Assembly: GCF_900116765.1 (NCBI RefSeq)
Contig: NZ_UETC01000002.1
Coordinates: 62,001-126,000, forward strand
Direction: 5' to 3'
Length of the DNA stretch: 64,000 bases
DNA from: Jannaschia seohaensis
GTDB taxonomy: Bacteria > Pseudomonadota > Alphaproteobacteria > Rhodobacterales > Rhodobacteraceae
This document shows, piece by piece, positions 4,192 through 53,625 of this stretch (position 1 is the stretch's first letter; the number at the start of each line of letters is the position of its first letter). The notes under the pieces are model-generated. The model ran no database searches, was not told where the DNA came from, and saw only the letters and a list, made by a program, of their open reading frames with translations. The position numbers and the translations under genes were made by a program.

Positions 4192-4214
4192 GTCCAGGCC
4201 CTCTGGGGAGCGAA

Positions 4215-4247
4215 CTGGCCCTAGGCCAGCTTGGAAGCTGGCCCTAA
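4215..4247 (+). promoter_or_regulatory. probable TauR box pair C (xsc promoter)
   Basis: CTGGCCCTAG (4215-4224) and CTGGCCCTAA (4238-4247) have exactly the 23-bp period seen in pairs A and B. A TTGACC hexamer (4255-4260), a possible -35, follows 7 nt later, so an activator bound here would abut RNA polymerase. An inverted copy of the half-site (TAGGTCCAG, 4189-4197) overlaps the tauR stop. Confidence 0.65.
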
Positions 4248-4342
4248 CGCTGCATTGACCCCGACCCTATTATTGCGGCACACTCCGACCAATGAGACTC
4301 ATGGTCTCAATTTTCGATATGCTCCGGGGAGGAAGCACCGCC

Positions 4343-6121: not shown

Positions 6122-6440
6122 CGGCCATCACAGCGCGGGCGGGGGGGCAGCCCCCCGCCCTCGTCGCGCCACATCTGAATGAATGGCCGGTGACGGGCCC
6201 GCTGCCGGTCTCCGCCAGCCTGGATTTCCGTGTCCCGGGGCGGCCGGTTTCGGCTGCTCGGCGCCAGCTAGGTCCGCTCTTGCGCCCCCGTACCGGCTCG
6301 GCGGGCGGGTCCTTTCCCCGCGCCGCAGATCAGCCCTTCGGCCAAAGCCTCATCCGACTGGGCGCGGGTGCCCGCCATCGACACCCCGCTGAACTCGGTC
6401 GGACCATCGGCGTGAGCCCAAAACGAGACGGTCACAGCGA
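6122..6440. other. xsc-pta gap with one strong hairpin
   Basis: No gene is supported in these 319 bases. The only clear structure is a 10-bp perfect GC stem (GGGCGGGGGG 6137-6146 / CCCCCCGCCC 6151-6160) directly after the xsc stop, without a T-run. It probably attenuates or terminates xsc transcription. The rest shows no convincing promoter or TauR pair. Confidence 0.5.
6137..6160 (+). terminator. GC hairpin after xsc
   Basis: A 10-bp stem with a GCAG loop begins 16 nt after the xsc stop codon. It lacks a U-tract, so it may be a processing or attenuation hairpin. Confidence 0.5.
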
Positions 6441-7424
6441 ATGAGTTTCTTCGACACCCTCCGCGCCCGGGCCCAAGCCGCCTGCCATCACATCGTCTTG
6501 CCCGAGGGCACCGACCCCCGCGTGCAGGAGGCCGCCGGCCGTGCCGTGGCCGAGGGCCTGGCGCGTATCACCCTGCTCGCACCCGAGGGCACCGCTCTGC
6601 CGGACGGCGTGACGCTCGAAGACCCGACGAAGAGCGCCCGCAGGGACGCGATGAGCGCCGCCTATCTCGCCGCCCGCGCTAAGAAATCCCCCACGGACGA
6701 GCAGGCCGCCGCGGCCATCTCGGACCCGCTGGTCTGGGCTGCGCTGATGGTCCGCGCGGGCTTCGCGGAGGGCACCATCGGCGGCGCCGTCGCCACGACC
6801 TCCGACACGGTGCGCGCCGCGCTCCAGATGATCGGCACCGCGCCGGGCGCCCCGCTCGTCTCCAGCTTCTTCCTGATGGTGCTGCCCGAGACGCACCCGA
6901 CCCGCCCCGGGGCGGGCCTGATCTTCTCCGATTGCGGCCTCGTCATCGACCCGTCGCCCGAGGAGCTCGCCGCCATCGCCACCCAGGCCGCCGCCTCCGC
7001 CGAAGCGCTGCTCGGCGAGGCCGCCAAGGTCGCCATGCTCAGCTTCTCGACCAAGGGCTCCGCCAGGCATGCCCGCGTGACCAAGGTCACCGACGCGCTT
7101 GCGCTGCTGGCCGACGCCCCCTTCGCCGTCGATGGAGAGCTTCAGTTCGACGCGGCCTTCGACGCGGGGGTGGGCGCCGCCAAGGCGCCGGGCAGCGCGG
7201 TCGCCGGCCACGCCAACGTGATGGTCTTCCCCAATCTCGATGCCGGCAATCTGGGCTACAAGATCGCCCAGCGCATCGGCGGCGCGACCGCCATCGGCCC
7301 CGTCCTCCAGGGCCTCGCCAAGCCTGCCAACGACCTCAGCCGGGGCTGTACCGCCGAGGACATCCTCGACATGATCGCCGTCACCTCGGCGCAGATCGAC
7401 GCCACCAAGGGAGCAACGCCATGA
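6441..7424 (+). CDS. pta: phosphate acetyltransferase
   Basis: A 327-residue short-form Pta (PTA_PTB family) that converts acetyl-phosphate from Xsc to acetyl-CoA in the cytoplasm. Family signatures include HIVLPEGTDPRVQEAA at the N-terminus, MVRAGFAEGTIGGAV and NVMVFPNLDAGNLGYKIAQRIGGA near the C-terminus. The ATG at 6441 gives the usual start of the family. Its stop overlaps the soeA start (ATGA), so pta and soeA are translationally coupled. This ties acetyl-CoA formation to disposal of the sulfite released by Xsc. Confidence 0.95.
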   Translation: MSFFDTLRARAQAACHHIVLPEGTDPRVQEAAGRAVAEGLARITLLAPEGTALPDGVTLEDPTKSARRDAMSAAYLAARAKKSPTDEQAAAAISDPLVWAALMVRAGFAEGTIGGAVATTSDTVRAALQMIGTAPGAPLVSSFFLMVLPETHPTRPGAGLIFSDCGLVIDPSPEELAAIATQAAASAEALLGEAAKVAMLSFSTKGSARHARVTKVTDALALLADAPFAVDGELQFDAAFDAGVGAAKAPGSAVAGHANVMVFPNLDAGNLGYKIAQRIGGATAIGPVLQGLAKPANDLSRGCTAEDILDMIAVTSAQIDATKGATP

Positions 7425-10246
7425 ACCAGCCCGTGCTCAATCTCTCCCCCAAGGTGGGCGACGAGATCCGCAAAACCACCTGCTACATGTGCGCGTGCCG
7501 CTGCGGCATCGACGTCCACATCAAACACACCGACAAGGGCGACAAGGTCGCCTATATCGAGGGAAATCGTGATCACCCGGTGAACCAGGGCGTGCTCTGC
7601 GCCAAGGGCTCCGCCGGGATCATGCAGCACAACGCGCCCTCCCGCCTGCGCCAGCCGATGAAGCGCGTGGGCCCCCGCGGCTCGGGCGAGTTCGAGCCGA
7701 TCTCCTGGGACGAGGCCTACGACATCGCGGCAAGCTGGCTGGAGCCGATCCGGCGCGAGGACCCGTCCAAGCTCGCCTTCTTTACCGGCCGCGACCAGTC
7801 GCAAAGCTTCACCTCTTGGTGGGCGCAGGCCTTCGGCACGCCCAATTACGCGGCCCATGGCGGCTTCTGCTCGGTCAACATGGCGGCGGGCGGCATCTAT
7901 ACGATGGGCGGCGCCTTCTGGGAGTTCGGGCAGCCGGATTGGGAGCGCACCAAGCTCTTCATCCTCTTCGGCGTGGCCGAGGACCACGACAGCAACCCCA
8001 TCAAGATGGGCATCGGCAAGATGAAGGCGCTGGGCGGCAAGGTCGTCGGCGTGAACCCCATCCGCTCCGGCTATAATGCCGTGGCTGATGACTGGTTCGG
8101 CGTGACGCCCGGCACCGACGGCCTCTTGATCCTGTCTCTGGTCCATTGCCTGCTCAAGGCCGGCAAGATTGACCTCGACTACCTCGCGCAGTTCACCGAC
8201 GCGCCCGTCCTCATCGATGCGCGCCCCGGGCCGACCGAAGGTCTGCCGCTCAAGGACGATGACGGCCACGCCCTGGTCTGGTGCCGCGCCGAGAACCGCG
8301 TGCGGTGCTACGACGCCGAAGGGGTCGAGCCCTCGCTCACCGCCACATGGGAGCAGGACGGCGTGACGCACCGGACGGTGTTCGCGCATATGGCCGAGAA
8401 ATATCTCAGCGCCGACTACTCCCCCGAGGCCGTGGCCGAGCGCGTCGGCATCCCCGCCCCCCGCATCCGCGCGCTCGCCAACGAAATCGCCCGCGTCGCC
8501 TTCGAGGAGGAGATCGAACTCGACCACGAATGGACCGATTTCCGCGGCCGCACCCACAAGACGATGAAGGGCCGCCCCGTCAGCTTCCACGCCATGCGCG
8601 GCATCTCGGCCCATGCCAACGGCTTCCAGACCTGCCGCGCGCTGCACATGCTGCAAATCCTGATCGGCTCGGTCGAGACCCCCGGCGGCTTCCGCTTCAA
8701 ACCGCCCTACCCCAAGGCCGCGACGATCCACCCAAAGCCCCATTGCAAGGTCACGCCCGGCGCGCCCCTCGACGGCCCTCATCTGGGCTTCACCCACGGT
8801 CCCGAAGACCTGTGCCTGAAGGAAGACGGCTCCCCCGCGCGGATCGATAAAGCCTATACCTGGGAAAACCCCATGAGCTCCCATGGCATGATGCATATGG
8901 TGATCTCGAACGCCCATGCGGGCGATCCCTACAAGATCGACACCCTGTTCCTCTACATGGCGAACATGGCGTGGAACTCGTCGATGAACACGTCCGGCAC
9001 GATGAAGATGCTGTCGGATACCGACGAGAACGGCGATTACGTGATCCCGCATATCATCTATTCCGACGCCTATAGCTCGGAGATGGTCGCCTATGCGGAC
9101 CTCATTCTGCCCGATACCACCTATCTGGAGCGCCACGACTGCATCTCGCTGCTCGACCGCCCGATCTGCGAGGCCGAGGCCGCCGCTGACGCCATCCGCT
9201 GGCCCGTGGTGGAGCCCGATCGCGACGTGCGCGGCTTCCAGACGGCGTTGATCCAACTCGGCGCCAAGATGGGTCTCCCCGGCTTCGTGAAGGAAGACGG
9301 TACGCCGAAATTCGCCGATTACGCCGATTATATCGTCAACCACGAACGCCGCCCCGGCGTGGGGCCGCTGATGGGCTGGCGCGGCAATGGCGACGAGACC
9401 GGGCGCGGCGCGGTCAACCCCAACCAGCTCGACCGCTATATCGAAAACGGCGGCTTCTGCCTCGCCCATATCCCCGAGCACGCGCAGTTCTACAAACCGT
9501 GGAACGCCGCCTATCAGGACTGGGCCGTGGAGATCGGCCTCTACGACAAAGCGTCCCCCTACATCTTCACGCTCTGGTGCGAGCCACTGCGCAAGTTCCA
9601 GCTGGCCGCCGAGGGCCATGGAGAGCGCCAGCCCCCCGATCACCTGCGGGAGCGCATGAAGGCCACGATGGACCCGCTCCCGATCTGGTGGGATCCGACC
9701 GCCGCCCATGATGGCGAGGGCAAGTTCACCGTGACGGCGCTGACCCAGCGACCGATGGCGATGTACCATTCCTGGGGCACGCAGAACGCCTGGCTGCGCC
9801 AGATCCACGGCATGAACCCGCTCTACGTCCCGACCAAGCTCTGGCAGCAGCATAGCTTCGCCGAGGGCGACTGGGCCCGCGTGACCTCCCCGCACGGAGA
9901 GATCACCGTCCCCGTCGCCCATATGCCCGCGCTCAACGAGAACACGGTCTGGACCTGGAACGCCATCGGCAAGCGCCGCGGCGCCTGGGCGCTCCACGAC
10001 AATGCGCCCGAGTCGAACAAGGGCTTCCTGCTGAACCACCTCATCCACGAGCTTCTGCCGCCCAAGAAGGACGGGATGCGCTGGTCCAACTCCGACCCGA
10101 TCACCGGCCAGGCGGCGTGGTTCGACCTGAAGGTGGCGATCGAAAAAACCGCGCCCCCCGCCGATCTGCGCTCCAAGCCGGACACCGGATCCCAGAAGAG
10201 CCCGGTCGGCGCAGGCCCCCAAAAGCTCGCCTGGGAGGTGAAATGA
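7421..10246 (+). CDS. soeA: sulfite dehydrogenase molybdopterin subunit SoeA
   Basis: A 941-residue molybdopterin-guanine-dinucleotide oxidoreductase of the DMSO-reductase superfamily. An N-terminal [4Fe-4S] motif (CYMCACRCGIDVHI...CAKG, about residues 24-70) precedes the large catalytic domains and a C-terminal MGD-binding domain. There is no twin-arginine signal, which agrees with the cytoplasm-facing SoeABC sulfite dehydrogenase. It oxidises sulfite to sulfate with electrons passed to SoeB and SoeC. The start overlaps pta by 4 nt. The assignment to sulfite rather than thiosulfate or polysulfide rests on pta/xsc context and the SoeA-type N-terminus. Confidence 0.9.
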   Translation: MNQPVLNLSPKVGDEIRKTTCYMCACRCGIDVHIKHTDKGDKVAYIEGNRDHPVNQGVLCAKGSAGIMQHNAPSRLRQPMKRVGPRGSGEFEPISWDEAYDIAASWLEPIRREDPSKLAFFTGRDQSQSFTSWWAQAFGTPNYAAHGGFCSVNMAAGGIYTMGGAFWEFGQPDWERTKLFILFGVAEDHDSNPIKMGIGKMKALGGKVVGVNPIRSGYNAVADDWFGVTPGTDGLLILSLVHCLLKAGKIDLDYLAQFTDAPVLIDARPGPTEGLPLKDDDGHALVWCRAENRVRCYDAEGVEPSLTATWEQDGVTHRTVFAHMAEKYLSADYSPEAVAERVGIPAPRIRALANEIARVAFEEEIELDHEWTDFRGRTHKTMKGRPVSFHAMRGISAHANGFQTCRALHMLQILIGSVETPGGFRFKPPYPKAATIHPKPHCKVTPGAPLDGPHLGFTHGPEDLCLKEDGSPARIDKAYTWENPMSSHGMMHMVISNAHAGDPYKIDTLFLYMANMAWNSSMNTSGTMKMLSDTDENGDYVIPHIIYSDAYSSEMVAYADLILPDTTYLERHDCISLLDRPICEAEAAADAIRWPVVEPDRDVRGFQTALIQLGAKMGLPGFVKEDGTPKFADYADYIVNHERRPGVGPLMGWRGNGDETGRGAVNPNQLDRYIENGGFCLAHIPEHAQFYKPWNAAYQDWAVEIGLYDKASPYIFTLWCEPLRKFQLAAEGHGERQPPDHLRERMKATMDPLPIWWDPTAAHDGEGKFTVTALTQRPMAMYHSWGTQNAWLRQIHGMNPLYVPTKLWQQHSFAEGDWARVTSPHGEITVPVAHMPALNENTVWTWNAIGKRRGAWALHDNAPESNKGFLLNHLIHELLPPKKDGMRWSNSDPITGQAAWFDLKVAIEKTAPPADLRSKPDTGSQKSPVGAGPQKLAWEVK

Positions 10247-40945: not shown

Positions 40946-42076
40946 TCACGCCCGGGCGTTGGCCAGCTTGGTGCCTTCCGCCAGAGTGGCGAGCTTGGCA
41001 TAGGCGATATCCGGATCCACCGCCCCGAACCCGGCGAAGGTGCCAAAGCCGCAATCGCTGCTGGCAATGACCCGGTCGGCCCCGACGATCTGCACGAAGC
41101 GGCCCAGGCGCTCGGCGACGACCTCGGGGTGTTCGACGAAGTTCGAGGTCGAATCGATCACGCCCGGCACCAGCACCTTGTCCTCGGGGATCTCCGACGC
41201 GCGGTCACGGAATACCTGCCATTCGTGGGCGTGGCGCGGGTTCGAGGTCTCGAACAGCAATTGCGACGCATTCACCGACAGGAAGGTCGAGAAGACCGTG
41301 TCCATCGGGATGTCGCAGACATGCGGACCCTCGTAATTGCCCCAGCAGATATGAACGCGCACGCGGGACGGGTCGATGCCGGTCAGCGCGGCATTCAGCG
41401 CCTCGACATGGCCGGCAGCGATCTTGAGGAACTCCGCGTCCGTGAGGTCGGCGAACAGCATGTGCCGGGACAAGGCCAGATCCGGGCAGTCGACTTGCAG
41501 GTAGAGGCCGCTGTCGACGATGGTGCGGTATTCGTCGCGCATCGCATCCGAGAGCGCCGCCAGATAGGCATCGCGGGTCGGGTAGAAATCGTTCTGCAGG
41601 AACAGCGAGATGACACCCGGCGATGCGGCGTTCATGAAGCCTTCGGCCGCGCCATGCTCGGCCATCGCGGCCTTGAGGTTGGCAATGTCGGTCTTCAACT
41701 CGTCCTGGCCCTTCGAGCGGACCTCGCCGGTGCACATCGGCCGCGCGTATTTCGGGGTCCCCCCATCGGCCGCGAGGCGCTTCAGGAAGTTGGGGAAGAG
41801 CTTGAGATCGGCGGGCGCGTTGCGGGGGCTGTCGCCGGAGAACCCGGTATAGCGATCCTTCACATAGGTCGCGTAGCTGATCTTCGAGGTCTCCCCATCC
41901 GAGACGATATCGATGCCCGCCTCGACCTGCCGACGCACCGTCTCGGAGGAGGCGGCGGTCATCTGCGCATCGAAGGCGGCCTGATCATAGGCCTCGCCCC
42001 GCTCCCGGGCGAAGATCATGTCGACCGTCTCTTGGGTGCGCGGCAGCGACCCGACATGGGTGGTGCGGATGGGCAT
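40946..42076 (-). CDS. cobalamin-independent methionine synthase II-like protein (MetE C-terminal family)
   Basis: A 376-residue stand-alone MetE catalytic-domain homologue. Probable zinc ligands are the H and C in VRVHICWGNYEG, the E in FETSNPRHAHEW and the C in IASSDCGFGTFAGF. Family N-terminal motif THVGSLPRTQETVDM. It lacks the N-terminal MetE half, so the methyl donor and acceptor are uncertain. GGAGGAGT precedes the ATG at 42076. Confidence 0.85.
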   Translation of the reverse strand: MPIRTTHVGSLPRTQETVDMIFARERGEAYDQAAFDAQMTAASSETVRRQVEAGIDIVSDGETSKISYATYVKDRYTGFSGDSPRNAPADLKLFPNFLKRLAADGGTPKYARPMCTGEVRSKGQDELKTDIANLKAAMAEHGAAEGFMNAASPGVISLFLQNDFYPTRDAYLAALSDAMRDEYRTIVDSGLYLQVDCPDLALSRHMLFADLTDAEFLKIAAGHVEALNAALTGIDPSRVRVHICWGNYEGPHVCDIPMDTVFSTFLSVNASQLLFETSNPRHAHEWQVFRDRASEIPEDKVLVPGVIDSTSNFVEHPEVVAERLGRFVQIVGADRVIASSDCGFGTFAGFGAVDPDIAYAKLATLAEGTKLANARA

Positions 42077-42242: not shown

Positions 42243-43448
42243 TCAAGAGGCCCGCGGCTCCATCCAGCGGCGGTCGAGCTGCCACAGCCCCCAGGCCAGC
42301 GGGATCGCGGCCAGCCCTCCGACGACATAGACTAGGGGCTCGTCATGGTAGGTCTCGAAAGCTTGGGTATAGGCGTGGATGCCGGCAAAGGTCACCGCGG
42401 CGTTGAAGAGCCCGCGCCGGGCCTTGTGCGCGGCCCAGAATACGGCGGCGGCCAGCGCGAGAGCCCAGAGGATCGAATAGACACCCTCGGGGATGAACAG
42501 CGCGGTCTCGTTGAAGGCATCCAGCGCGGCGGCCCAGGCCTCCTGCGACTCGTAGGCCTCGCGATTGCTCCACCAGGAGCGGCCGGGACCCCAGAGCGTC
42601 TCCCCCACCCGGTCGCCGAACAGCGAGCCGACCAGCGCGCAGAGATTGGCCACGATCGCCGCCATGATCGCGAGGATACCGCCATGGCGTCCCCAGCGGG
42701 GGTCGAGGGAATGGGCCGCCCACAGACCGCCCGCCACGAGCGCGCCCATCTGGAGGATCGAAAGCGTCGGTTCCGGGGAATAGAACACATAGGCCGCGTG
42801 CCAGTAGATCGTGCCGGTCGACAGCGCTTGGGCGAAGGGGACGATAGCCAGCGCCGTGACCACGCGCAGATCGGTGACGATCCCCGCGCCGACCAGGGCG
42901 GCGGCGGCATAGAGCGAGGCCAGCGCCACGGGCCATCCGGTGATGTCGTTCAGCTCGATCAGGGCGGCCAGGCCCGTCAGGTGCAAGGCCAAGCCCATCA
43001 ATCCGATCGCCCCGCAGGCAAAGCGGGAGGTCAGACGCGGGCGACCGAGGGCCATGCCGAAGCCTCCAGCCACGGCGGCCCCAAGAAGCAACATGGCCGG
43101 ACCCGCGATATCTTCGTATTTGTCCATCAGCTCGAAGGCGGCCCCGCCCAGCAGCAGCCCGGCCCCGATCAGCGCCGCCGCATTGCCGAAGAAGCGCAGT
43201 GTCTCGCCCCCCTTGGCCAGCGCCAGAAGCCCCCCTGCCAGCGCGACGGCCCCGGCCCCCGCGACCGGCAAAGGCTCGGCCAGCCAGAAGATCAGACCGA
43301 GGGTCGCCGCCAAGATGCCACCGGTCAGCAGCAGGTTGATGGCGAGTTTCATCATCGTCTCGCGCGCCTGGGCGCGGAGAATATCGACCTGTGCGGGCGT
43401 CAGCGCGCCCTCGGCCAGAAGGCGGTGGGTATCTGCGACGACATACAT
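42243..43448 (-). CDS. DUF2157-type polytopic membrane protein
   Basis: A 401-residue protein with a short soluble N-terminus (LLAEGALTPAQVDILRAQARE) and then about eleven hydrophobic helices, as in DUF2157 proteins. The ATG at 43448 is chosen because GGAGG lies 7 nt before it; a longer frame to 43514 runs through a palindrome. The function is unknown. Its promoter region contains two GAAC-N3-GTTC palindromes. Confidence 0.78.
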   Translation of the reverse strand: MYVVADTHRLLAEGALTPAQVDILRAQARETMMKLAINLLLTGGILAATLGLIFWLAEPLPVAGAGAVALAGGLLALAKGGETLRFFGNAAALIGAGLLLGGAAFELMDKYEDIAGPAMLLLGAAVAGGFGMALGRPRLTSRFACGAIGLMGLALHLTGLAALIELNDITGWPVALASLYAAAALVGAGIVTDLRVVTALAIVPFAQALSTGTIYWHAAYVFYSPEPTLSILQMGALVAGGLWAAHSLDPRWGRHGGILAIMAAIVANLCALVGSLFGDRVGETLWGPGRSWWSNREAYESQEAWAAALDAFNETALFIPEGVYSILWALALAAAVFWAAHKARRGLFNAAVTFAGIHAYTQAFETYHDEPLVYVVGGLAAIPLAWGLWQLDRRWMEPRAS

Positions 43449-43463
43449 CAGAGCCTCCAGTTC

Positions 43464-43490
43464 TTGAACTATGTTCAAATTTTGTAGCGG
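43464..43490. promoter_or_regulatory. palindrome repeat 1 upstream of the DUF2157 gene
   Basis: TTGAAC-TAT-GTTCAA (43464-43478), followed by ATTTTGTAGCG. A second copy of the same composite pattern lies at 43520-43545. Only 16 bp separates it from the start codon, so a bound regulator would block initiation. Confidence 0.5.
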
Positions 43491-43519
43491 AGCGGCACCC
43501 ACGAAAGCAAACACTTTCG

Positions 43520-45592: not shown

Positions 45593-46623
45593 TCCGACTC
45601 CCCCCCGGATCCGCTCCGAGGCAGCCGGGCGGAGCCGCGCACCACCAGCGGGCCTTCGATCTCGATGCGGCTGGGGCGGCGAGAGGGCGTGTCGATGCGC
45701 GCCAACACCTCCTCCACGGTGGCGGCGATCATCCGGCGCACGGGCTGGCGCAGGGTGGTAAGGTCATAGGCGGGCCAGGCCGACATCGCGATGTCGTCGA
45801 AACCCACCACCGAGACATCGCCCGGCACCGAAAGCCCCAGATCGAAGCGCAGCACGTCCATCACGGCGAGCGCCATATAGTCGTTGCCGACGAAGATCGC
45901 GTCCGGCGGGTCGGGCCGGTCCATCATTGCCCGCGCCGCCTCGGCGGCCTCGGCGCGGCTGTAGCGCCCGTCGATCACCTCCAGCGGCGCAGCGCCCGCC
46001 GCGCGCAGCCCCGCCTCGAACCCCTCGCGCCGGTCCCGCCCCGTCGAGGAGCCCTGCCAGCCGGAGATATGCGCGATCCGCTCATGCCCGCCCGCCAACA
46101 GGAACTCCGCCACGCGGCGCCCGCCCGCCCGGTTGTCGGAAGTCACCGCCGACATGCCGGACTTGTCGATTCCGCGGTTGAACAGCACCACCGGCAGACC
46201 GGCCGACGCGCAGCGCGCGACCAGCGCGCCCGAGAGATCCACCGACGCGGCAATCAGCGCGTCCACCTGGTAATCCATCAGCTCCGACACGACCCCGTCC
46301 AGATCGGCCCCGGAATTCCCGACGGTAAAGATCAGCAGGTGATAGCCCTCGGCCTGGAGCGCATGGGACAGCTTTTCGACCGCATCGGCGAAGAACGGAT
46401 TGTCGAGATAAGCCACCACCAGCCCGACGATCCGCGACCGCCCGGTGATGAGCGACCGGGCCAGCACGTTGGGACGGTAGCCCAGTCGCTCGGCCGCTTC
46501 GCGGACGCGCTTCTCCATCGCCTCGCTGACCGAGGCCCCTTTGGTGAAGACGCGAGAGACGGCCGACTGGCTGACGCCAGCCGCCCGGGCCACGTCGAGC
46601 GAGGTGACCTTCTTGCCGCTCAT
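45589..46623 (-). CDS. LacI-family transcriptional regulator
   Basis: A 344-residue regulator. The N-terminal HTH is KVTSLDVARAAGVSQSAVSRVF and the hinge helix region is RLGYRPNVLARSLITGRSRIVGLV. A periplasmic-binding-like sensor domain follows. The start at 46623 overlaps the SDR stop (ATGA). Two matching 16-bp operators with central CG lie before the SDR and before the HpsN-like gene, so it probably controls itself and both blocks. The inducer is unknown. Confidence 0.92.
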   Translation of the reverse strand: MSGKKVTSLDVARAAGVSQSAVSRVFTKGASVSEAMEKRVREAAERLGYRPNVLARSLITGRSRIVGLVVAYLDNPFFADAVEKLSHALQAEGYHLLIFTVGNSGADLDGVVSELMDYQVDALIAASVDLSGALVARCASAGLPVVLFNRGIDKSGMSAVTSDNRAGGRRVAEFLLAGGHERIAHISGWQGSSTGRDRREGFEAGLRAAGAAPLEVIDGRYSRAEAAEAARAMMDRPDPPDAIFVGNDYMALAVMDVLRFDLGLSVPGDVSVVGFDDIAMSAWPAYDLTTLRQPVRRMIAATVEEVLARIDTPSRRPSRIEIEGPLVVRGSARLPRSGSGGESE

Positions 46624-47375
46624 CCTGCGGTCCATCCGCCATCGACCAGGATCGAGGTGCCGGTGATCATCGCGCTGGCATCCGAGGCGAGGAAGACCAC
46701 GGCGCCCATGATATCCTCCACCTCGCCCACGCGGGGCAGCTTGATCTTCTCGTCAATCCAGGCGCGACGCACCGGATCGTCGAAGGTCGCCTGGGTCAGA
46801 GGCGTCAGGATGAAGGTCGGGCAGATCGTGTTGACGCGGATATTCTTCGGCCCCCACTCGATCGCCATCGCCTTGGTCATGCCCTCGACGCCGTGCTTGG
46901 TCGCGCAATAGACGGCCCGGTCGATCCCGCCGACATGCCCCATCTGGCTGCTGATCTGGATGATCGAGCCCCCGCCCTCCATCCGCCGCGCCACGCGCTG
47001 CGCCATGAAATAGGCGGCGCGCAAGTTGAGGCTGACGACGGCGTCGAAATCTTCGGGCTCGGTCTCGATCGAGGGCCCGTGCCGCGCCATTCCGGCGGAG
47101 TTGCACAGAATGTCGAAGGGCGCGCGCGCCTCCAGCGCGGCGTCCAGCGCGTCCAGGTCGGAGACGTCCAGCGCCAGCCCGTCGGCAGCATATCCGGCCT
47201 CGCGCAAAGCGGCCACGGCCGTCTCCACCCCGGCTTCGCTGCGCGCGGCGACGGTCACTTCGGCCCCCGCCTCGGCGAGCGCCGCGGCACAGCCCAGACC
47301 GATGCCGCGCGTGCCGCCGGGGACGAAAGCCCGGCGTCCCTCGAGCCGGAAAGAAGGCGTGCGGGGAAGGGTCAT
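46620..47375 (-). CDS. short-chain dehydrogenase/reductase (SDR)
   Basis: A 251-residue classical SDR. The cofactor motif is FVPGGTRGIGLGCA, followed by NSAG (NNAG variant), catalytic Ser in QISSQMGH, the YxxxK in VYCATKHG, and an SDR C-terminus ending ITGTSILVDGGWTAG. It is likely an NAD(P)-dependent polyol or sugar-acid dehydrogenase. It heads a four-gene block and its start is 24 bp from a LacI-type operator. The substrate is unknown. Confidence 0.9.
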   Translation of the reverse strand: MTLPRTPSFRLEGRRAFVPGGTRGIGLGCAAALAEAGAEVTVAARSEAGVETAVAALREAGYAADGLALDVSDLDALDAALEARAPFDILCNSAGMARHGPSIETEPEDFDAVVSLNLRAAYFMAQRVARRMEGGGSIIQISSQMGHVGGIDRAVYCATKHGVEGMTKAMAIEWGPKNIRVNTICPTFILTPLTQATFDDPVRRAWIDEKIKLPRVGEVEDIMGAVVFLASDASAMITGTSILVDGGWTAG

Positions 47376-47398
47376 GGCGGGTCTCCGAACGAGGTGAT

Positions 47399-47414
47399 GT
47401 GCAAGCGTATGCAA
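47399..47414. promoter_or_regulatory. LacI-type operator before SDR
   Basis: GTGCAAGCGTATGCAA, an imperfect palindrome with the central CG typical of LacI-family operators. It differs from the 50508 site at two of sixteen positions. It lies 24 bp before the SDR start. Confidence 0.75.
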
Positions 47415-47508
47415 TCACCGCCGGACTACGGGTTCAAGAGGTTTCAAAGAACTGGAGCATGGTTTGGCGCGTTGCGTTTCGTGTTTCGGCCCCAACCGCG
47501 GAACGGAT

Positions 47509-48081
47509 ATGACCAAACCGACCGAGATCATCGAGACCCTGGAGGAGAGCGCGACGGCCACCGAAGAGGTCAGCGCGGACCGGGTCGCCGGCCAACTCGG
47601 GCGCCGGTCGATCGGCGCGCTGCTCGCCATCCCGGCCGCATTTGAGCTGACACCGATCGGAGGCCTTCCCGGCGTGCCGACGCTTCTGGCCTCGATCGTG
47701 GCGGTCGTCGCGATGCAGATCCTGATCGGGCGTCGGAACCTTTGGCTGCCGGATATTCTGGCCCGGAGATCGGTCGGGGCCAGCCGCCTGGCGCAAGCCA
47801 CCGACCGGCTGCGTCCTGCCGCCGAATGGGCCGACCGGCATCTTGGCGGCCATCTCCCATGTCTCGTGGCGCCACCCGCGCCGCGCTTCGCGGCGGCGGC
47901 GATCCTGGCGCTCTGCGCCACGGTGCCGGGGCTGGAGCTTGTGCCCTTCGCCTCCTCGATCCCGATGGGAACGATCGTGCTGTTTGGTCTGGCCCTCCTC
48001 GCCCGCGACGGGCGCGTCATGGCGCTGGCCTGGGCCTGCACGGCGGCCGCCTTCGGCACGATCTGGTGGCTCTGGCCCTGA
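47509..48081 (+). CDS. ExoD family membrane protein
   Basis: A 190-residue ExoD-like exopolysaccharide-related protein. The N-terminal RVAGQLGRRSIGALLAIPAAFELTPIGGLPGVPTLLA and late hydrophobic helices match the family, whose biochemical role is unknown. It is on the plus strand inside the minus-strand LacI cluster, ending 3 bp before the SnoaL-2 stop, so it splits the cluster into two blocks. Confidence 0.85.
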   Translation: MTKPTEIIETLEESATATEEVSADRVAGQLGRRSIGALLAIPAAFELTPIGGLPGVPTLLASIVAVVAMQILIGRRNLWLPDILARRSVGASRLAQATDRLRPAAEWADRHLGGHLPCLVAPPAPRFAAAAILALCATVPGLELVPFASSIPMGTIVLFGLALLARDGRVMALAWACTAAAFGTIWWLWP

Positions 48082-48084
48082 CGG

Positions 48085-49026
48085 TCAGAGCAGCTGCCGC
48101 ATCCGCGCCAGCACATCCACGCCGAGCTGCGCCCAGATATCCAAGAGGTCCACCGTGACCCAGTTCTCCCGGATCAGCGCACCCTCGACCCGCCAGAAAT
48201 CCAGCGACCGCATGGTGAGCGTCTGGCCGGCGGGCGCGATCCCCAGCCACCCATCCCCGGTCAATGTCATGCGCATCCCGGGCCACGCCGTGAAGGCGAC
48301 GTAGTTGCCCTGAGCGAACAGGTGCCCCTGTTCCATCAAAGCGGCCCGGTCCGGCATCGCCGACAGGAAGGGGATCTGGTGATGATCGCGAAAGCCCCGG
48401 ATCCCCCGCAGGTTCCCGATCCCGCCCGGCCCGTACCAGGAGCAGCGCGGATGCCAGAAGTCCGGGAGACGCATCGCCTCTTCGCCCTGCGGCGAGAGGT
48501 GCAGATGCGCCAGCATGTCCTCGACCACCGCGAGCGCGGCCGCCCCGTCCCCTTCGATGCGCAGGCCGTCCTGCGTCGGGGGCGCGGGGACCCTCCCGCG
48601 GGCGCCCAAAGGAGGACCCATCGGCCAGAGACCGGCCTGCGCCATCAGATCCGGCAAGTCCCAGATCGCCTGCACCTCCACCGCCCGGCCGTCCTCGATC
48701 CGAAAGAACTCGTGGTAGCGCAGCGCGGCCAGGCGGCCCGTCGGCCGGATACCCAGGAACGGCGCGGCGAACCGCCCCTGATAATGGCCCGCTTGCCCGA
48801 TCCAATCCTGCCCGTGCCCGCAGATCCCCCGAACCGAAATATCGACCCGCCGCTCCACATCCGGCATCGCCGCCCAAAGCGGCGCGAGCGCCGCCTCGAC
48901 AAGGCCGGCCCCACCGATGACATCCCCGAACGGATGAGACAGATGCACCACCGCATCGGGCGCGACCGCCGCCTCCACCGCCCCACGCATCTCACGCGCG
49001 GAGCAATCGCCAAGCGCCTCCAGCAT
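48085..49026 (-). CDS. SnoaL-like (NTF2-fold) protein 2
   Basis: A 313-residue protein with two SnoaL/NTF2-like halves (DAVVHLSHPFGDVIGGAGLVEA..., and FWHPRCSWYGPGGIGNLRGIRGFRDHHQIPFL...). It resembles polyketide-cyclase SnoaL proteins. It lies downstream of the HpsN-like gene, separated by intergenic repeat copy 4. Its function is unknown. Two such double-SnoaL proteins in one regulon suggest a linked reaction. Confidence 0.75.
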   Translation of the reverse strand: MLEALGDCSAREMRGAVEAAVAPDAVVHLSHPFGDVIGGAGLVEAALAPLWAAMPDVERRVDISVRGICGHGQDWIGQAGHYQGRFAAPFLGIRPTGRLAALRYHEFFRIEDGRAVEVQAIWDLPDLMAQAGLWPMGPPLGARGRVPAPPTQDGLRIEGDGAAALAVVEDMLAHLHLSPQGEEAMRLPDFWHPRCSWYGPGGIGNLRGIRGFRDHHQIPFLSAMPDRAALMEQGHLFAQGNYVAFTAWPGMRMTLTGDGWLGIAPAGQTLTMRSLDFWRVEGALIRENWVTVDLLDIWAQLGVDVLARMRQLL

Positions 49027-49030
49027 GGAT

Positions 49031-49081
49031 CCTCATCTTGCCAAAAATACCTCAGAGAGCGCGAGAGACAGCGTCTCTCGC
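49031..49081 (+). repeat. intergenic repeat family, copy 4 (divergent)
   Basis: The head TCATCTTGCCAAAAATAC (49033-49050) precedes hairpin GCGAGAGAC-AGC-GTCTCTCGC (49061-49081). A second hairpin GCCGGGGC-TCGAT-GCCCCGGC lies at 49089-49109. It sits between the HpsN-like gene and SnoaL-2. Confidence 0.7.
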
Positions 49082-49120
49082 AGGCCGTGCCGGGGCTCGA
49101 TGCCCCGGCGCGGCCTCCCG

Positions 49121-50446
49121 CTACTCGGCCGCCTCGCGATAGGGCGCGCCCGCGCCATAGGGCACGTTCACACCGCCATAGCGCCGGACCCGCACGTTGC
49201 ACTGCTCGGCATGGCCCACGAAGCCCTCCAACATGCAAAGCCGCGAGCCGTACTCCCCGATCAGCGTGGCCGCTTCGTCTGTGGTGATCTTCTGATAACT
49301 ATGGGTCTTGATGAACTTGCCGACCCAGAGCCCGCCCGTATACCGCCCGGCCTTCTTGGTCGGCAGCGTGTGGTTGGTGCCGATCACCTTGTCGCCATTG
49401 GACACGTTCGTGCGCGGCCCGAGAAACAGCGCCCCGTAGGAGTGCATGTTCTCCAGATACCAATCGTCCCGGTCGGTCATGACCTGCACATGTTCGGACG
49501 CGATGTCATTGGCCAGGGCCAACATCTCGTCATGGTCCTCACAGAGGATCACCTCGCCATATTCCTCCCAGCTCACCCGCGCCGTCTCGGCGGTCGGCAG
49601 GATGCCCAGGAGGCGGTCGATCTCGGCCTGGGTCGCCTCGGCCAGCTTGCGCGACGTGGTCAGCATCACGGCCGGCGAGTTATAGCCATGCTCCGCCTGC
49701 CCCAGCAGGTCGGTCGCGCAGATCTCGGCGTCGACGGTGTGGTCGGCGATCACCATGGTCTCGGTCGGGCCCGCGAAGAGGTCGATACCGACCCGGCCGA
49801 AGAGCTGCCGCTTGGCCTCCGCGACATAGGCGTTGCCGGGGCCGACCAGCATATGGACCGGCTCGATCGTCTCGGTGCCGATCGCCATGGCGCCCACGGC
49901 CTGGATGCCGCCCAGAACGTGGATCTCATGGGCGCCGCCCAGATGCATGGCGGCAATGACGGCGGGGTTGGGCTTGCCTTTGAAGGGCGGGGTGCAGGCG
50001 ACGATGCGCGGCACGCCCGCGACGCTGGCCGTGGCGACGGACATATGCGCCGAGGCGACCATCGGAAACTTGCCCCCTGGCACGTAGCATCCCACAGACT
50101 GCACCGGGATGTTGCGATGGCCCAGGATGACGCCGGGCATGGTCTCGACCTCGACATCCTTCATCGAGTCGCGCTGGATGCGCGCGAAATTGCGGACCTG
50201 CTCCTGGGCGAATTTGATATCGGCCAACTCCCGGTCCGACAGCTCGCCGATCAGCGCGTCGATCTCGGCCTGGCTCAGGCGGAAGCTCTCGGGCTCGTAA
50301 TTGTCGAACTTGGCCGCCATCTCGCGGACGGCCACGTCACCGCGCGCCTCGATGTCCTTGAGCGCGGCCTCGACCGACGCACGCACTTTCGCGTCGTCCT
50401 CGGCGCGGTCGGCTTCGGATTTGGCGGTCTTGAGATGCTCGGCCAT
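49121..50446 (-). CDS. hpsN: HpsN/HisD-like NAD dehydrogenase (sulfopropanediol 3-dehydrogenase type)
   Basis: A 441-residue histidinol-dehydrogenase-fold protein. It resembles HpsN (DHPS 3-dehydrogenase) more than true His[57 protein letters not shown] and [30 protein letters not shown]. The metal and catalytic His/Glu positions are retained. The ATG at 50446 has GGGAGG upstream. A LacI operator lies 62 bp before it. No hpsKLM transport or sulfolactate genes are near, so the substrate may not be DHPS. Confidence 0.75.
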
Positions 50447-50507
50447 GCACTGTCCTCCCATTGCTGCGGCAAGGATAGGCGAGCCGTGCCGGACGCTCAA
50501 ACAGTTT

Positions 50508-50523
50508 TTGCAATCGTATGCAA
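50508..50523. promoter_or_regulatory. LacI-type operator before HpsN-like gene
   Basis: TTGCAATCGTATGCAA has a central CG and the same TGCAANCGTATGCAA core as the 47399 site. It lies 62 bp upstream of the HpsN-like start codon. Confidence 0.75.
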
Positions 50524-50555: not shown

Positions 50556-51545
50556 TCAGAGCCCCTGCAACCAGGCCGTCAGCGTGGCGATGGCGTCCGG
50601 GGTGCGGCCCGGAGAGACGATCTCGCCCGCGATCACGTGTTCGGAGGGATCGTCGCCGGGCGACGGCGGCACCCGTTCCACCGTGACCGCTCCGCCCCAG
50701 GCGGCGGCGACGGCTTCGGTGGCTGCGGGCATGACGACCTGATCTCGGGGCGAGAAATAAAAGAGCGCCGGCATCCGGGCCGCGCCCCAATCGAGATCCT
50801 CCGCGTGATCCACCAGAGCCTGCATCGGCAGCGCCGCGACGGTGGGATAGCGCGTGGTCCAATGCTCCGCCTGCGCCGCGTTGATCGGCTCGAAGCCCCG
50901 CTGCTCCCCGGCAAGAACCGGCACCCAATAGCGCGCCGCGGGCCAGGAGAGTAGCTGCGCCGCCGGACCGGCCACCCGAAAGTTCGGCGAGACCAGCGCG
51001 ACACCGGCCAGCCCCTCCCGCTCCGCAGCAAGCGCCCGATCCGCCGCCAGGATCGCGGCCAGGAGCCCTCCGGTCGAGGTTCCCACCACAACGACCCGGT
51101 CGCCCAGACGCCGGCCGATCGCCATCGCCTCGGCCACGTCCTCCAACCAGTCGCCCGCGCGCGGCTCCGCCATCGCCGCCCCGTCCCGCCCGTGGCCCGC
51201 GAGGCGCTGATAGAACAGGTTCGCGCCCAGCGCCGCGGCGGCGCGGTCGGCGACGGGGCGGATTTCCCAGAGGTTGGCCGAGAAGCCGTGCAGGTAGACG
51301 ATGGCCAGATCGGTGCGTTGCCCGGGCGCGCCGGCCCAGATGATGCGCTTGGCGGAGCCGGGCCGCAGGTTGGGCACCTGGCTTTCGGTATCGGCCAGCC
51401 ACCCGTCCAGATCCTCCGGCAGAGCCCCCGGATCGAAGGCGATCTCGGTATCGACCTCCTCATAGGGACCCACGACCCAGAGGGCAGCGACCGCGATGGC
51501 GAGTCCGATGAAGAGAAACAGAATTCCGCGCAGAACCGTGACCAT
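50556..51545 (-). CDS. membrane-anchored alpha/beta hydrolase
   Basis: A 329-residue serine hydrolase with an N-terminal membrane helix ([22 protein letters not shown]). The oxyanion segment is [13 protein letters not shown], the nucleophile elbow [11 protein letters not shown] (about residue 165), the acid SPRDQVV and the likely histidine SEHVIAG. It is probably exported and anchored, acting as a carboxylesterase. The gene is monocistronic, next to a second hydrolase. Confidence 0.85.
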
Positions 51546-51589: not shown

Positions 51590-52333
51590 TCAAGGCGCGA
51601 TGCGGTCCAGCACCTCTTCGACGCTGCGTTCGATCAGCGCGATCTGGTCCGGCTCCGAGAAGCGGTGATCCGCGCCCTTGACCAGTGTCAGCCGGATGTC
51701 GGGCCCCTCGGCATGGGCCAGCAGGCGATGGGCCCAGGCCTCGGGCACGTCGGCATCGGCGGTTCCTTGCAGGAACCGTGTCGGCACCGGCAGCGGCAGG
51801 GGGCTGCGGAGCACCAGCCGCTCCCGCCCCTCCTCGATCAGGTGCTTGGTGATGACATAGGGCTCGCCATAGTCCGACGGCACCGCTACGCGCCCGGCTT
51901 CGAACAGGGCGACGCGCTGCGCCTCGTCGAATGAGGCCCAATAGCCGTCCTCGGTGAAATCCGGAGCCGCCGCGATGGTCACGAGGCCCGCGACGCGCGA
52001 CGGATGCTCCCGCGCGATCAGCAGCGCGATCCAGCCGCCCATGGACGAGCCGACCAGCACGCAGGGCTGCGTGATCTCATGGGCGATCACCGCCAGCGCG
52101 TCCGCATACCAGGCGCCGATGCTCCCCGCCTCGAAGGTGCCCCCGGATTGGCCGTGGCCCGAATAGTCCAGCCGGAGGAAGGCCTGGCCCCGTGCCCGCG
52201 CCCAGGCTTCGAGGGCCAGCGCCTTGGTGCCCTGCATGTCCGATTTGAAGCCGCCGAGAAATACGACAGCGGGGGCCTCGCCCGGGGTGAATTCATAGGC
52301 GAGCGGGGTTCCGTCTCGGTCGATCATGGGCAT
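51590..52333 (-). CDS. cytoplasmic alpha/beta hydrolase
   Basis: A 247-residue alpha/beta hydrolase resembling the ABHD10-like group: FLGGFKSDMQGTKALALEAWA, LRLDYSGHGQSGG, nucleophile in LVGSSMGGWIALL, acid in GTADADVP, histidine in GADHRFSE. It has no signal peptide. The ATG at 52333 follows a GGAGG. It is divergent from the ArsR gene, whose two operators lie in the shared gap and may control both. Confidence 0.88.
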   Translation of the reverse strand: MPMIDRDGTPLAYEFTPGEAPAVVFLGGFKSDMQGTKALALEAWARARGQAFLRLDYSGHGQSGGTFEAGSIGAWYADALAVIAHEITQPCVLVGSSMGGWIALLIAREHPSRVAGLVTIAAAPDFTEDGYWASFDEAQRVALFEAGRVAVPSDYGEPYVITKHLIEEGRERLVLRSPLPLPVPTRFLQGTADADVPEAWAHRLLAHAEGPDIRLTLVKGADHRFSEPDQIALIERSVEEVLDRIAP

Positions 52334-52383
52334 GGCGGGTCCTCCTGGCCCGCAGATAGACCGCGAGGGCCGCACATGCAAAC

Positions 52384-52405: not shown

Positions 52406-52435
52406 ATTGACAGGTGACCAATGAGTCACCTACAA
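52406..52435 (+). promoter_or_regulatory. promoter of the ArsR-SRPBCC operon
   Basis: TTGACA (52406-52411) and CTACAA (52430-52435) have 18-bp spacing. Transcription would begin at about the ATG at 52444, giving a leaderless mRNA; this agrees with the absence of a Shine-Dalgarno there. Confidence 0.55.
52412..52431. promoter_or_regulatory. ArsR operator B
   Basis: A perfect palindrome AGGTGAC-N6-GTCACCT. It fills the spacer between the proposed -35 and -10, an ideal repression site. Confidence 0.75.
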
Positions 52436-52443
52436 GACCGATA

Positions 52444-53109
52444 ATGGACACGATCTTCAAAGCCCTCGCCGACCCCTCCCGCCGCGATCTACTCGACGCG
52501 CTGCGGCAGGCCGACGGCCAGACCCTTTCGGAGTTGGAGGCCACCTTGCCCATCAGCCGCTTCGGCGTGGCCAAGCACCTGAAGATATTGGAGGAAGCAG
52601 GGCTGATAACGCGCCTCAAGCGCGGCCGCTACACCCATCACTACCTCAATGCCGTCCCCCTGGCCGAAGCGCTCAACCGCTGGGTTGAGCCGTTCGAGGT
52701 CGCGCCCGCGGCGTCCGGACTCCTCGCTCTCAAGGCCCGGCTGGAAGCGGAGGAAGAAGCGCCCGACGTGACCCATCACAGCTTCATCCGCTGCTCCCGG
52801 GACGCGCTTTGGCGGGCCCTGCGGATCGGCGCGCGCCGCCCACTGCGCCCCGGCCCGGACAGCGCCGTCATCGCTGCCGAGACGGGCACGCGGCTCGTCA
52901 CCCGCCTGCCCCCCCTGGGCGCCCTGCCCGAGACCCGCGTGATCTATGACATCGCGTCCGAAGACGGGCATCAGCATCTGACCGTCGGCCATTATGGCCT
53001 GCCGCAACCTCTGCGCGCCCAGGTCGCCGAGAACTGGGCGCGCTGGTCCGCCGCGCTCAAGACCTTTTTGGAGACCGGCGAGGCCGTGGCTTTCCCCCGC
53101 CCCGGCTGA
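52444..53109 (+). CDS. ArsR-family regulator fused to an SRPBCC-like domain
   Basis: 221 residues. The N-terminal winged helix is DTIFKALADPSRRDLLDALRQADGQTLSELEATLPISRFGVAKHLKILEEAGLI. The C-terminal half (from about residue 105) looks like a shortened START/SRPBCC domain. A GTG at 52414 is in frame but lies inside operator B, so the ATG at 52444 is preferred. The next gene is a full SRPBCC protein, a frequent ArsR-AHSA1 arrangement. Confidence 0.85.
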   Translation: MDTIFKALADPSRRDLLDALRQADGQTLSELEATLPISRFGVAKHLKILEEAGLITRLKRGRYTHHYLNAVPLAEALNRWVEPFEVAPAASGLLALKARLEAEEEAPDVTHHSFIRCSRDALWRALRIGARRPLRPGPDSAVIAAETGTRLVTRLPPLGALPETRVIYDIASEDGHQHLTVGHYGLPQPLRAQVAENWARWSAALKTFLETGEAVAFPRPG

Positions 53110-53196
53110 GGCATCCCGCCAAATCGAAACATGCAAGCCGTCCGCTCTCACGGGACGGCCACCGGATACCTGCGCCCAATCCATTGCAGACCCGAG

Positions 53197-53625
53197 ATGA
53201 CCCCAAAGCCCGATTATGTGCTACGCACCTTCATCAGGTGCAGTCAGGATGCACTCTGGGAGGCGCTGACCGCGCCCGAGGACGCCGCCTCCTACCACCC
53301 TTACACGCCCGAGGCGGTCCGCGATGGCGACGCGCTGGTCTACAAGCTGCCCGACGGCTCGGACATGCTGGTCTGCCGCGAAACCTCGGTGACCCCGAAG
53401 ACACGGATCGAAGTGGAGTTCGCGCCGAAATGGGCCCCCAACATCCCCGTTTCGCGCTTCGTCTGGTCGATCGCCCCCGAAGGCGCCTTCTGCGCGCTCA
53501 CGCTGGAGCATTACGACATCCCCGAGGGCGGCGAAGGCTATGCCGACGGCTGGGAGCGGCTGGTTGCCGGGCTCAAGACCTGGCTGGAGACCGGAACGCC
53601 GGCCCGCGTCGGAGAAACCGCATGA
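53197..53625 (+). CDS. SRPBCC/AHSA1-family protein
   Basis: A 142-residue START-like ligand-binding domain: DYVLRTFIRCSQDALWEALTAPEDAASYHPYTPEAVRDGDALVY... VSRFVWSIAPEGAFCALTLEHYDIPEG. Its N-terminus (FIRCSQDALWEAL) repeats the start of the second half of the upstream ArsR protein (FIRCSRDALWRAL), suggesting duplication. It overlaps the MAPEG start (ATGA). Confidence 0.88.
   Translation: MTPKPDYVLRTFIRCSQDALWEALTAPEDAASYHPYTPEAVRDGDALVYKLPDGSDMLVCRETSVTPKTRIEVEFAPKWAPNIPVSRFVWSIAPEGAFCALTLEHYDIPEGGEGYADGWERLVAGLKTWLETGTPARVGETA

Follow-up and report, generated by a model that had tools for sequence, protein, structure and literature searches.

We found that two LacI-type operators in Jannaschia seohaensis, in a 64,000-nucleotide stretch of contig NZ_UETC01000002.1 (positions 62,001 to 126,000; hereafter the window), are with a probability of roughly 80% part of a local autoregulated LacI regulon for import and catabolism with four operator sites, as judged from sequence. 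Our best reading of its role is an inducible import and catabolism system for a polar compound that bears a hydroxymethyl group and is often methylated. The first-pass annotation of this DNA had proposed a LacI-controlled split regulon of six genes, a proposal that is supported by the conservation of both the operators and the genes, so that neither of the two conditions named there as refuting it applies. The six-gene set holds, but its extent was drawn too small: we found four sites, an ABC transporter and two extra double-SnoaL genes, and the neighbourhoods in relatives add a MetE-like gene, a hydrolase gene and an RraA aldolase gene.

The two window sites, GTGCAAGCGTATGCAA (operator 1) and TTGCAATCGTATGCAA (operator 2), are CG-centred 16-mers at 47399 and 50508 that have, as first described, 14 of 16 bases in common, with mismatches only at positions 1 and 7. 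Operator 1 lies 23 bp from the ATG of an SDR gene (47375), with the minus-strand operon SDR-lacI-SnoaL1-bicupin downstream, and operator 2 lies 61 bp from the ATG of a HisD-like dehydrogenase gene (50446), with the minus-strand operon HisD-like-SnoaL2 downstream, which confirms the gene order given earlier. An even palindrome with a central CG is described in the text of PMC4052901 as a feature of LacI-family operators, and such a palindrome stands upstream of the targets here. As operator 1 precedes the operon that contains lacI itself, autoregulation is predicted. The LacI protein matches PF00356 and PF13377 above cut-off, corresponding to a helix-turn-helix (HTH) and a periplasmic-binding-protein-like effector domain. 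A consensus scan of the window with up to three mismatches gave three matches against 0.31 expected, one of them being site 2 on the opposite strand, and 3 of 100 shuffles also gave three; these window-only statistics provide modest support for the pair.

Scanning the whole 4.84-Mb genome, we found the core TGCANNCGNNTGCA at exactly four places. All four are intergenic and beside genes of one conserved set, and the regulon thus counts four operator sites at three genomic places. A scan with TTGCAANCGTATGCAA returned three sites with at most one mismatch, of which that at C17:469073 was new, and a further two that differ at two positions. The site at C17:10298 (two mismatches, not palindromic) was set aside, as no set gene was recognised nearby by eye. 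Site 3, on contig C17, is located 58 bp from the gene of a UgpC/MalK-type ATPase; a third double-SnoaL gene is transcribed divergently, its ATG 14 bp from the site. Past the ATPase gene, at a distance of about 720 bp, comes a single-domain SnoaL gene. Site 4, on contig C22, is flanked on one side by an operon encoding an SBP_bac_1 binding protein, a 195-amino-acid protein with no family assignment, a GMC oxidoreductase and two BPD_transp_1 permeases, and on the other side by a divergent fourth double-SnoaL gene. Jointly, sites 3 and 4 adjoin one complete CUT1 transporter (SBP_bac_1, two BPD_transp_1, MalK/UgpC-type ATPase), the ATPase being on C17 and the remainder on C22. The cluster had been noted to lack a transporter within the window, and none is present among the window genes annotated, which cover part of the window; since sites 3 and 4 adjoin transporter genes, the transporter absent from the window belongs to the set. 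Elsewhere in this genome, the stretch C16:212000-231900 holds, at its positions 3951-9800, an ATPase gene 76% identical to that of the regulon, a SnoaL1 paralogue (54%) and an RraA gene in two pieces; the sole operator-like site of that stretch (two mismatches, at 1413) is not beside these genes.

The operators are also retained in orthologous loci. We collected 140 neighbourhoods (2.63 Mb), 40 chosen by LacI on long contigs, 20 by HisD and 80 by a HisD profile (the best 80 of at least 586 relatives), and found 126 TGCANNCGNNTGCA sites in 80 of them. Nine control patterns, seven matching the operator core in base composition and two with A/T centres, gave 0, 0, 0, 1, 1, 1, 2, 4 and 10 sites in the same loci. 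The exact site is present in 78 of the 115 loci with a LacI family member versus 2 of the 25 loci without one. A set gene lies at most 400 bp downstream of 97 sites, 24 were scored inside the open reading frame (ORF) of a set gene and 5 are elsewhere; these distances are rough, with ORF starts taken as the longest possible and the 24 in-ORF sites not individually verified.

Furthermore, in six other genomes whose lacI gene has no transporter genes around it, 74 places lie within one mismatch of TTGCANNCGNNTGCAA, versus 8 for the reversed control. Among 13 regions hand-picked from the 74 places (L202-L214), 8 carry set genes and 5 none. ABC genes, mostly together with SnoaL4, are found at L203, L204, L206, L207, L211 and L214, which represent five of the six genomes; L202 and L213 have single-SnoaL/SnoaL3 divergons. 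In L203 (genome G140) and L204 (G123), a second LacI paralogue (51-54% to that of the window) accompanies the same operator type, the ABC transporter and SnoaL4, and two related LacI regulators may share one operator type. Sites of the form TTGCAACCGGTTGCAA in other genomes were not counted, since they look like those of another LacI-family regulator; in G035, G140 and G123 they recur as pairs 4-6 kb apart, and TTGCAACCGGTTGCAA is probably the operator of a different LacI-family regulator.

The co-conservation of the six genes points the same way, with HisD present in 134, LacI in 115, SDR in 114, SnoaL1 in 106, bicupin in 102 and SnoaL2-type genes in 99 of the 140 loci; the LacI and HisD counts are biased, 40 loci having been picked by LacI and 100 by HisD. 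The threshold for joining these families was 35% identity, which misses more distant members, and four pairs of loci share identical HisD core sequences. MetE-like genes occur in 92 loci, the solute-binding protein in 90, permease F in 88, the ATPase in 87, permease G in 86, the hydrolase in 74, a single SnoaL in 64, RraA in 62 and GMC in 15. Many relatives carry a single cluster in the order operator, ATPase, solute-binding protein, permeases, single SnoaL, HisD-like, SnoaL2, SDR, LacI, SnoaL1, bicupin, MetE-like, alpha/beta hydrolase and RraA. Among the loci with a HisD-family member, 108 reach 19 kb or more; 62 of these 108 hold ABC, SnoaL, bicupin, MetE-like and LacI genes together and 9 hold no gene of these kinds. 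The split arrangement of J. seohaensis, with HisD-SnoaL2 and SDR-lacI-SnoaL1 behind separate operator-like sites, is also seen in a few relatives, for example L042, L068, L069 and L117, and some operator-like sites of such relatives have a GG or CC centre.

The most constant pair is the HisD-like and SDR genes, next come LacI, bicupin, hydrolase and aldolase. The transporter is mostly of the CUT1 ABC type and is swapped, as named by eye, for a TRAP-like one in L082 and L098, a TAXI-TRAP-like one in L085 and an MFS-like one in L095; that of L141 is TRAP-like by gene sizes only. HpaI-type aldolases (also named by eye) take the place of RraA in L085, L095 and L098. Of the bicupin loci that span 19 kb or more, seven lack any SnoaL family member, although two of the seven hold distant SnoaL1-like genes: L095 and L096 were scored as lacking SnoaL, yet carry SnoaL1-like genes at 24-29% identity. 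The SnoaL proteins may be a front end for some substrates. In the Ruegeria loci L100-L102, L105 and L107, an amidohydrolase-like gene (by eye) stands on the opposite strand beyond SnoaL; with an operator between the two in L100 and L101, it may be a further regulon member.

Relatives of the window LacI (E<=1e-60) are present in 129 of 295 genomes of the same family. HisD-like relatives (E<=1e-140) are present in 56 of 385 genomes in a search of the class, 5 of these belonging to the same family as the window; a search of the phylum found them in 31 of 398 genomes, 9 of which lie outside the class. In loci from outside the class (L095-L097), LacI, HisD and SDR are again found, as is the same palindrome. 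The HisD-like clade, together with its cluster, extends to small Alphaproteobacteria genomes, marine Gammaproteobacteria and soil genera such as Rhizobium, Ensifer and Microvirga. A rearranged set without the exact operator is found at L089, L090, L165-L170 and L175, in small Alphaproteobacteria genomes (for example G453, 1.6 Mb, and G550, 1.4 Mb) and in AG-... isolates, which we take to be single-cell genomes.

We infer the repression, the order of steps, each reaction and the substrate as follows. The LacI repressor would bind the CG-centred palindrome TTGCANNCGNNTGCAA, in which one outer-end base may vary, at each promoter, and a substrate-derived inducer in its sugar-binding-protein-like domain would, by analogy with the family, release it. 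This would switch on a CUT1-type ABC importer, four double-SnoaL proteins, the HisD-like dehydrogenase, the SDR, the GMC oxidoreductase and the bicupin, and probably also the single-domain SnoaL-like protein and the MetE-like methyltransferase. The chemistry that we propose is based on the active sites of these enzymes. Import would be followed by rearrangement or release steps via the SnoaL proteins; the HisD-like enzyme would carry out a four-electron oxidation of a CH2OH group next to an OH-bearing carbon, the SDR and GMC enzymes would oxidise further OH groups and the MetE-like enzyme would transfer a methyl group to homocysteine. Oxidative cleavage by the bicupin and then hydrolysis would lead to an aldol cleavage by RraA (HpaI-type in other lineages) that yields pyruvate. 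The combination of CH2OH oxidation and thiol methyl transfer with a hydrolase, a pyruvate aldolase and what may be a dioxygenase is compatible with a polar, often methylated compound whose carbon skeleton undergoes oxidative cleavage.

Catalytic residues are conserved in several of these enzymes. Aligned to 3rpd, the MetE-like zinc site (H292, C294, E326, C392) is invariant in 22 of 22 sequences, corresponding to the MetE zinc ligands H641, C643, E665 and C726 given in a passage of PMC7857596. A profile of the family matches MesD (3rpd) with E=6.6e-12, and a single-sequence search of the PDB with the MetE-like protein gave no match. Like the core methionine synthases MesA-MesD, as that passage describes them, the protein has the Meth_synt_2 catalytic domain with its zinc residues and no N-terminal domain; unlike them, it is encoded in a catabolic cluster and forms a distinct sequence family. 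In the RraA proteins of relatives, all 22 aligned sequences retain R128-D129, the Arg-Asp pair of the pyruvate aldolase site, described for the 4-hydroxy-4-methyl-2-oxoglutarate (HMG)/4-carboxy-4-hydroxy-2-oxoadipate (CHA) aldolase of the RraA family as Arg-123 and Asp-124 in a portion of PMC5065237, although similarity to that enzyme (3noj) is weak (profile E=8e-4).

Structure and fold searches with the bicupin and SnoaL1 named no function. The nearest fold to the bicupin model is the quercetin dioxygenase YxaG, with oxalate decarboxylase, gentisate/salicylate dioxygenases and vicilins near-tied; identity to YxaG and the gentisate/salicylate dioxygenases is 12-17%, and oxalate decarboxylase and seed-storage bicupins are within 1 to 2 Z units, a near-tie from which the function of the bicupin cannot be named. 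For SnoaL1, the nearest folds (Foldseek) are Lsd19 and IdmH, and many SnoaL proteins match. The top match, the two-domain SnoaL-like epoxide hydrolase Lsd19 (3rga), shares the tandem SnoaL domains, but identity is about 11%, the template-modelling (TM) score over the query is 0.33, and Lsd19 acts in polyether biosynthesis, not catabolism.

Several observations weigh against the regulon as we propose it. Base composition predicts about five exact TGCANNCGNNTGCA sites in this genome and four are seen, so there is no enrichment and the evidence rests on the positions of the sites, not on their number. The exact site is missing in 37 of the 115 LacI loci, no set gene was found in the remote-site regions L205 (G123), L208-L210 (all three in G035) and L212 (G081), and about 50 of the 74 listed places fall outside the examined sample, many of them clearly different palindromes. 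In J. seohaensis, co-transcription of the single-SnoaL gene with the ATPase gene is uncertain because of the gap of some 720 bp and a predicted opposite-strand ORF within it. The MetE-like gene is absent from some neighbourhoods, for example the Rhizobiales loci L159, L160 and L164. Finally, the J. seohaensis RraA orthologue (C16:221133-221803) is in two pieces in different frames, and neither it nor the hydrolase gene (C16:837732) has a matching operator nearby; with RraA broken and both genes remote, the final steps may be defective in this strain or under separate control.

Ordinary sugar, polyol or sugar-acid chemistry is the main rival to our best reading of the substrate. The same regulon would then import a sugar, polyol or sugar acid through the CUT1 transporter and process it by dehydrogenation, hydrolysis and a pyruvate aldolase, with the SnoaL proteins and the bicupin acting as isomerases or epimerases and not in oxidative cleavage of a carbon skeleton. 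Most characterised LacI regulators sense sugars, according to the text of PMC4052901, the best solved relative of the binding protein is 5iai, a ‘Sugar ABC transporter’ (E=1.9e-18), and an amidohydrolase-like gene, named by eye, occurs in 13 of the 140 loci. In the SDR model search, glucose 1-dehydrogenase and KduD rank second and third, all below cut-off. By eye, however, no sugar kinase or isomerase was recognised among families present in at least 8 of the 140 loci (many of those listed being antisense ORFs), and MetE-like and quercetinase-like proteins are unexpected in such a pathway. The replacement of the ABC transporter by TRAP- or MFS-like ones in L082, L085, L095 and L098 (by eye) suggests an acidic or small substrate. 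On balance, we regard carbohydrate chemistry as a serious contender with somewhat less than an even chance.

A specific form of the methylated-compound reading, which we consider unlikely, is that this would be the first catabolic pathway for an O-methylated hydroxymethyl carbocycle such as 4-deoxygadusol or the mycosporine-type UV screens. The SnoaL proteins would remove amino-acid or other substituents, the HisD-like enzyme would oxidise the CH2OH group beside the tertiary OH and the MetE-like enzyme would shift the O-methyl group to homocysteine. The bicupin might open the resulting reductone ring. This would give 4-carboxy-4-hydroxy-2-oxoadipate, which the CHA aldolase of the RraA family is known to cleave, with oxaloacetate and pyruvate as the products. 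This fit is a hypothesis from chemical reasoning. A passage of a review (PMC3083659) reports that bacteria can convert shinorine and porphyra-334 to 4-deoxygadusol.

The first-pass annotation had also entertained a sulfonate substrate of the 2,3-dihydroxypropane-1-sulfonate (DHPS) type. A DHPS or other C3-sulfonate pathway, with the HisD-like enzyme as HpsN, the SDR as HpsO and the sulfonate as inducer, now appears very unlikely. The closest solved structures to the HisD-like protein are indeed HpsN (8v35, E=6.9e-111 and 374.7 bits; 8wwe, 372.9 bits), ahead of the best histidinol dehydrogenase structure (259.7 bits), and an SDR gene is adjacent. The protein shares with HpsN the fold superfamily, the active-site Asp-Lys pair (GDK; Asp352-Lys353), and the zinc ligands and catalytic Glu-His, which are invariant in 11 of 11 aligned HisD-like sequences. 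In the diagnostic motif slot, however, where according to a passage of PMC11382572 HpsN has G-R-Y-A/S-H, with His126 touching the sulfonate, and HisD has G-S-A-P-L, the window protein has G-K-F-P-M and thus neither motif. G-K-F-P-M or G-K-Y-P-L is the rule in relatives, with GK[FY]P[ML] and GTNHTLPT found together in 132 of the 140 loci. In a 36-row HisD comparison, in which two rows are second copies of another HisD type, GKFPM is present in 32 of the remaining 34, the pattern being unmatched in L052 and L065. Since the sulfonate-contacting His of HpsN is replaced, DHPS is disfavoured, and this motif comparison removed it as the favourite. The gene neighbourhood differs from that of HpsN as well. 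An SDR is present, and by eye, with no model search run, none of the recurring families of the 140 loci was recognised as HpsP or a sulfolyase. To our knowledge, no SnoaL, bicupin, MetE-like or RraA protein has a role in known DHPS routes.

The same protein exceeds the cut-off of the histidinol dehydrogenase model TIGR00069 (425.6 versus 243.8), a model that may not separate HisD from HpsN, and it has the catalytic residues of HisD; it differs from HisD in the absence of G-S-A-P-L and in its catabolic, LacI-linked neighbourhood. By analogy, the enzyme should convert a CH2OH group into COOH where a metal-binding OH or NH2 group stands next to it, with sulfonate recognition by the HpsN His excluded. 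This suggests that some ‘histidinol dehydrogenase’ annotations belong to a third clade with neither the HisD nor the HpsN motif.

The weakest alternative, that the sites are a chance pair among unrelated neighbours, has in practice been refuted: although about five such palindromes are expected from the size and G+C content of the genome alone, all four sites adjoin one gene set, the 140 loci hold 126 sites versus 0-10 for the controls, and following the palindrome uncovered transporter genes in five of the six further genomes.

The local LacI regulon proposed here is a known kind of system, and its target set was not found described in the literature searched. The local LacI catabolic regulons presented in the text of Ravcheev et al. 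2014 (PMC4052901) share the HTH and sugar-binding-protein-like domains, the 16-bp even palindrome with a central CG, autoregulation, and an ABC transporter with catabolic genes as targets; they differ in that the targets here include a HisD-clade dehydrogenase, several SnoaL-like proteins, a bicupin and a MetE-like enzyme. The words ‘SnoaL’ and ‘histidinol’ are absent from the main text of that paper, whose supplementary table of 54 groups with unknown sugar pathways may list this LacI group. No description of the enzyme combination was found in the literature searched, which did not extend to supplementary tables or to RegPrecise, where the group may be listed. Since the pathway is spread across so many genomes, it should act on a natural compound that is common and that serves many bacteria of the sea and some of the soil. 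The binding protein, the repressor and the signature dehydrogenase can each be screened directly, which makes the substrate question testable.

Table 1. Predicted operators and genes of the regulon in the window (aa, amino acids; pLDDT, predicted local distance difference test)
Feature	Position	Strand	Remarks
MetE-like (Meth_synt_2) core methyltransferase	40946..42076	-	start set at HVGSLPR-containing N terminus
Bicupin, 319 aa	43579..44538	-	AlphaFold2 pLDDT 91.4
SnoaL1, tandem (double) SnoaL/NTF2-like protein, 326 aa	44612..45592	-	AlphaFold2 pLDDT 95.3
LacI-family repressor, 348 aa	45589..46635	-	alternative start Met5 at 46623
SDR-family oxidoreductase, 251 aa	46620..47375	-	family in 114/140 loci
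LacI operator 1 (predicted)	47399..47414		GTGCAAGCGTATGCAA; 23 bp 5′ of SDR-lacI-SnoaL1-bicupin
SnoaL2, tandem SnoaL/NTF2-like protein, 313 aa	48085..49026	-	
HisD/HpsN-superfamily dehydrogenase, third clade	49121..50446	-	G-K-F-P-M motif
LacI operator 2 (predicted)	50508..50523		TTGCAATCGTATGCAA; 61 bp 5′ of HisD-like-SnoaL2

In the operon behind operator 1, the overlap between SDR and lacI is 16 bases (4 with Met5 as the start) and that between lacI and SnoaL1 is 4, and these overlaps fit translational coupling. The coupling had been proposed for all four genes; it stands for these three and falls for the bicupin, which follows SnoaL1 after a gap of 73 bp. The MetE-like start was chosen from the N terminus conserved in homologues, the longest ORF beginning at 42328. 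Between the bicupin and MetE-like genes, which are adjacent in many relatives, lies a predicted membrane protein gene (42243-43514, minus strand, by eye). Given this intervening gene, the MetE-like gene, often a direct neighbour of the bicupin gene in relatives, is placed under operator 1 in J. seohaensis by inference.

An ExoD-family (PF06055) gene (47509-48081, plus strand) lies between the two operons on the opposite strand. Upstream of operator 2 are two alpha/beta-hydrolase genes (50556-51545 and 51590-52381, minus strand); the family of the second is found in 8 of the 140 loci, where it precedes the HisD operon on the same strand, and most of these relatives have the split arrangement. 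Beyond them, an ArsR-type regulator gene with an AHSA1-like extension is followed by a second AHSA1-like gene (52414-53625, plus strand, by eye).

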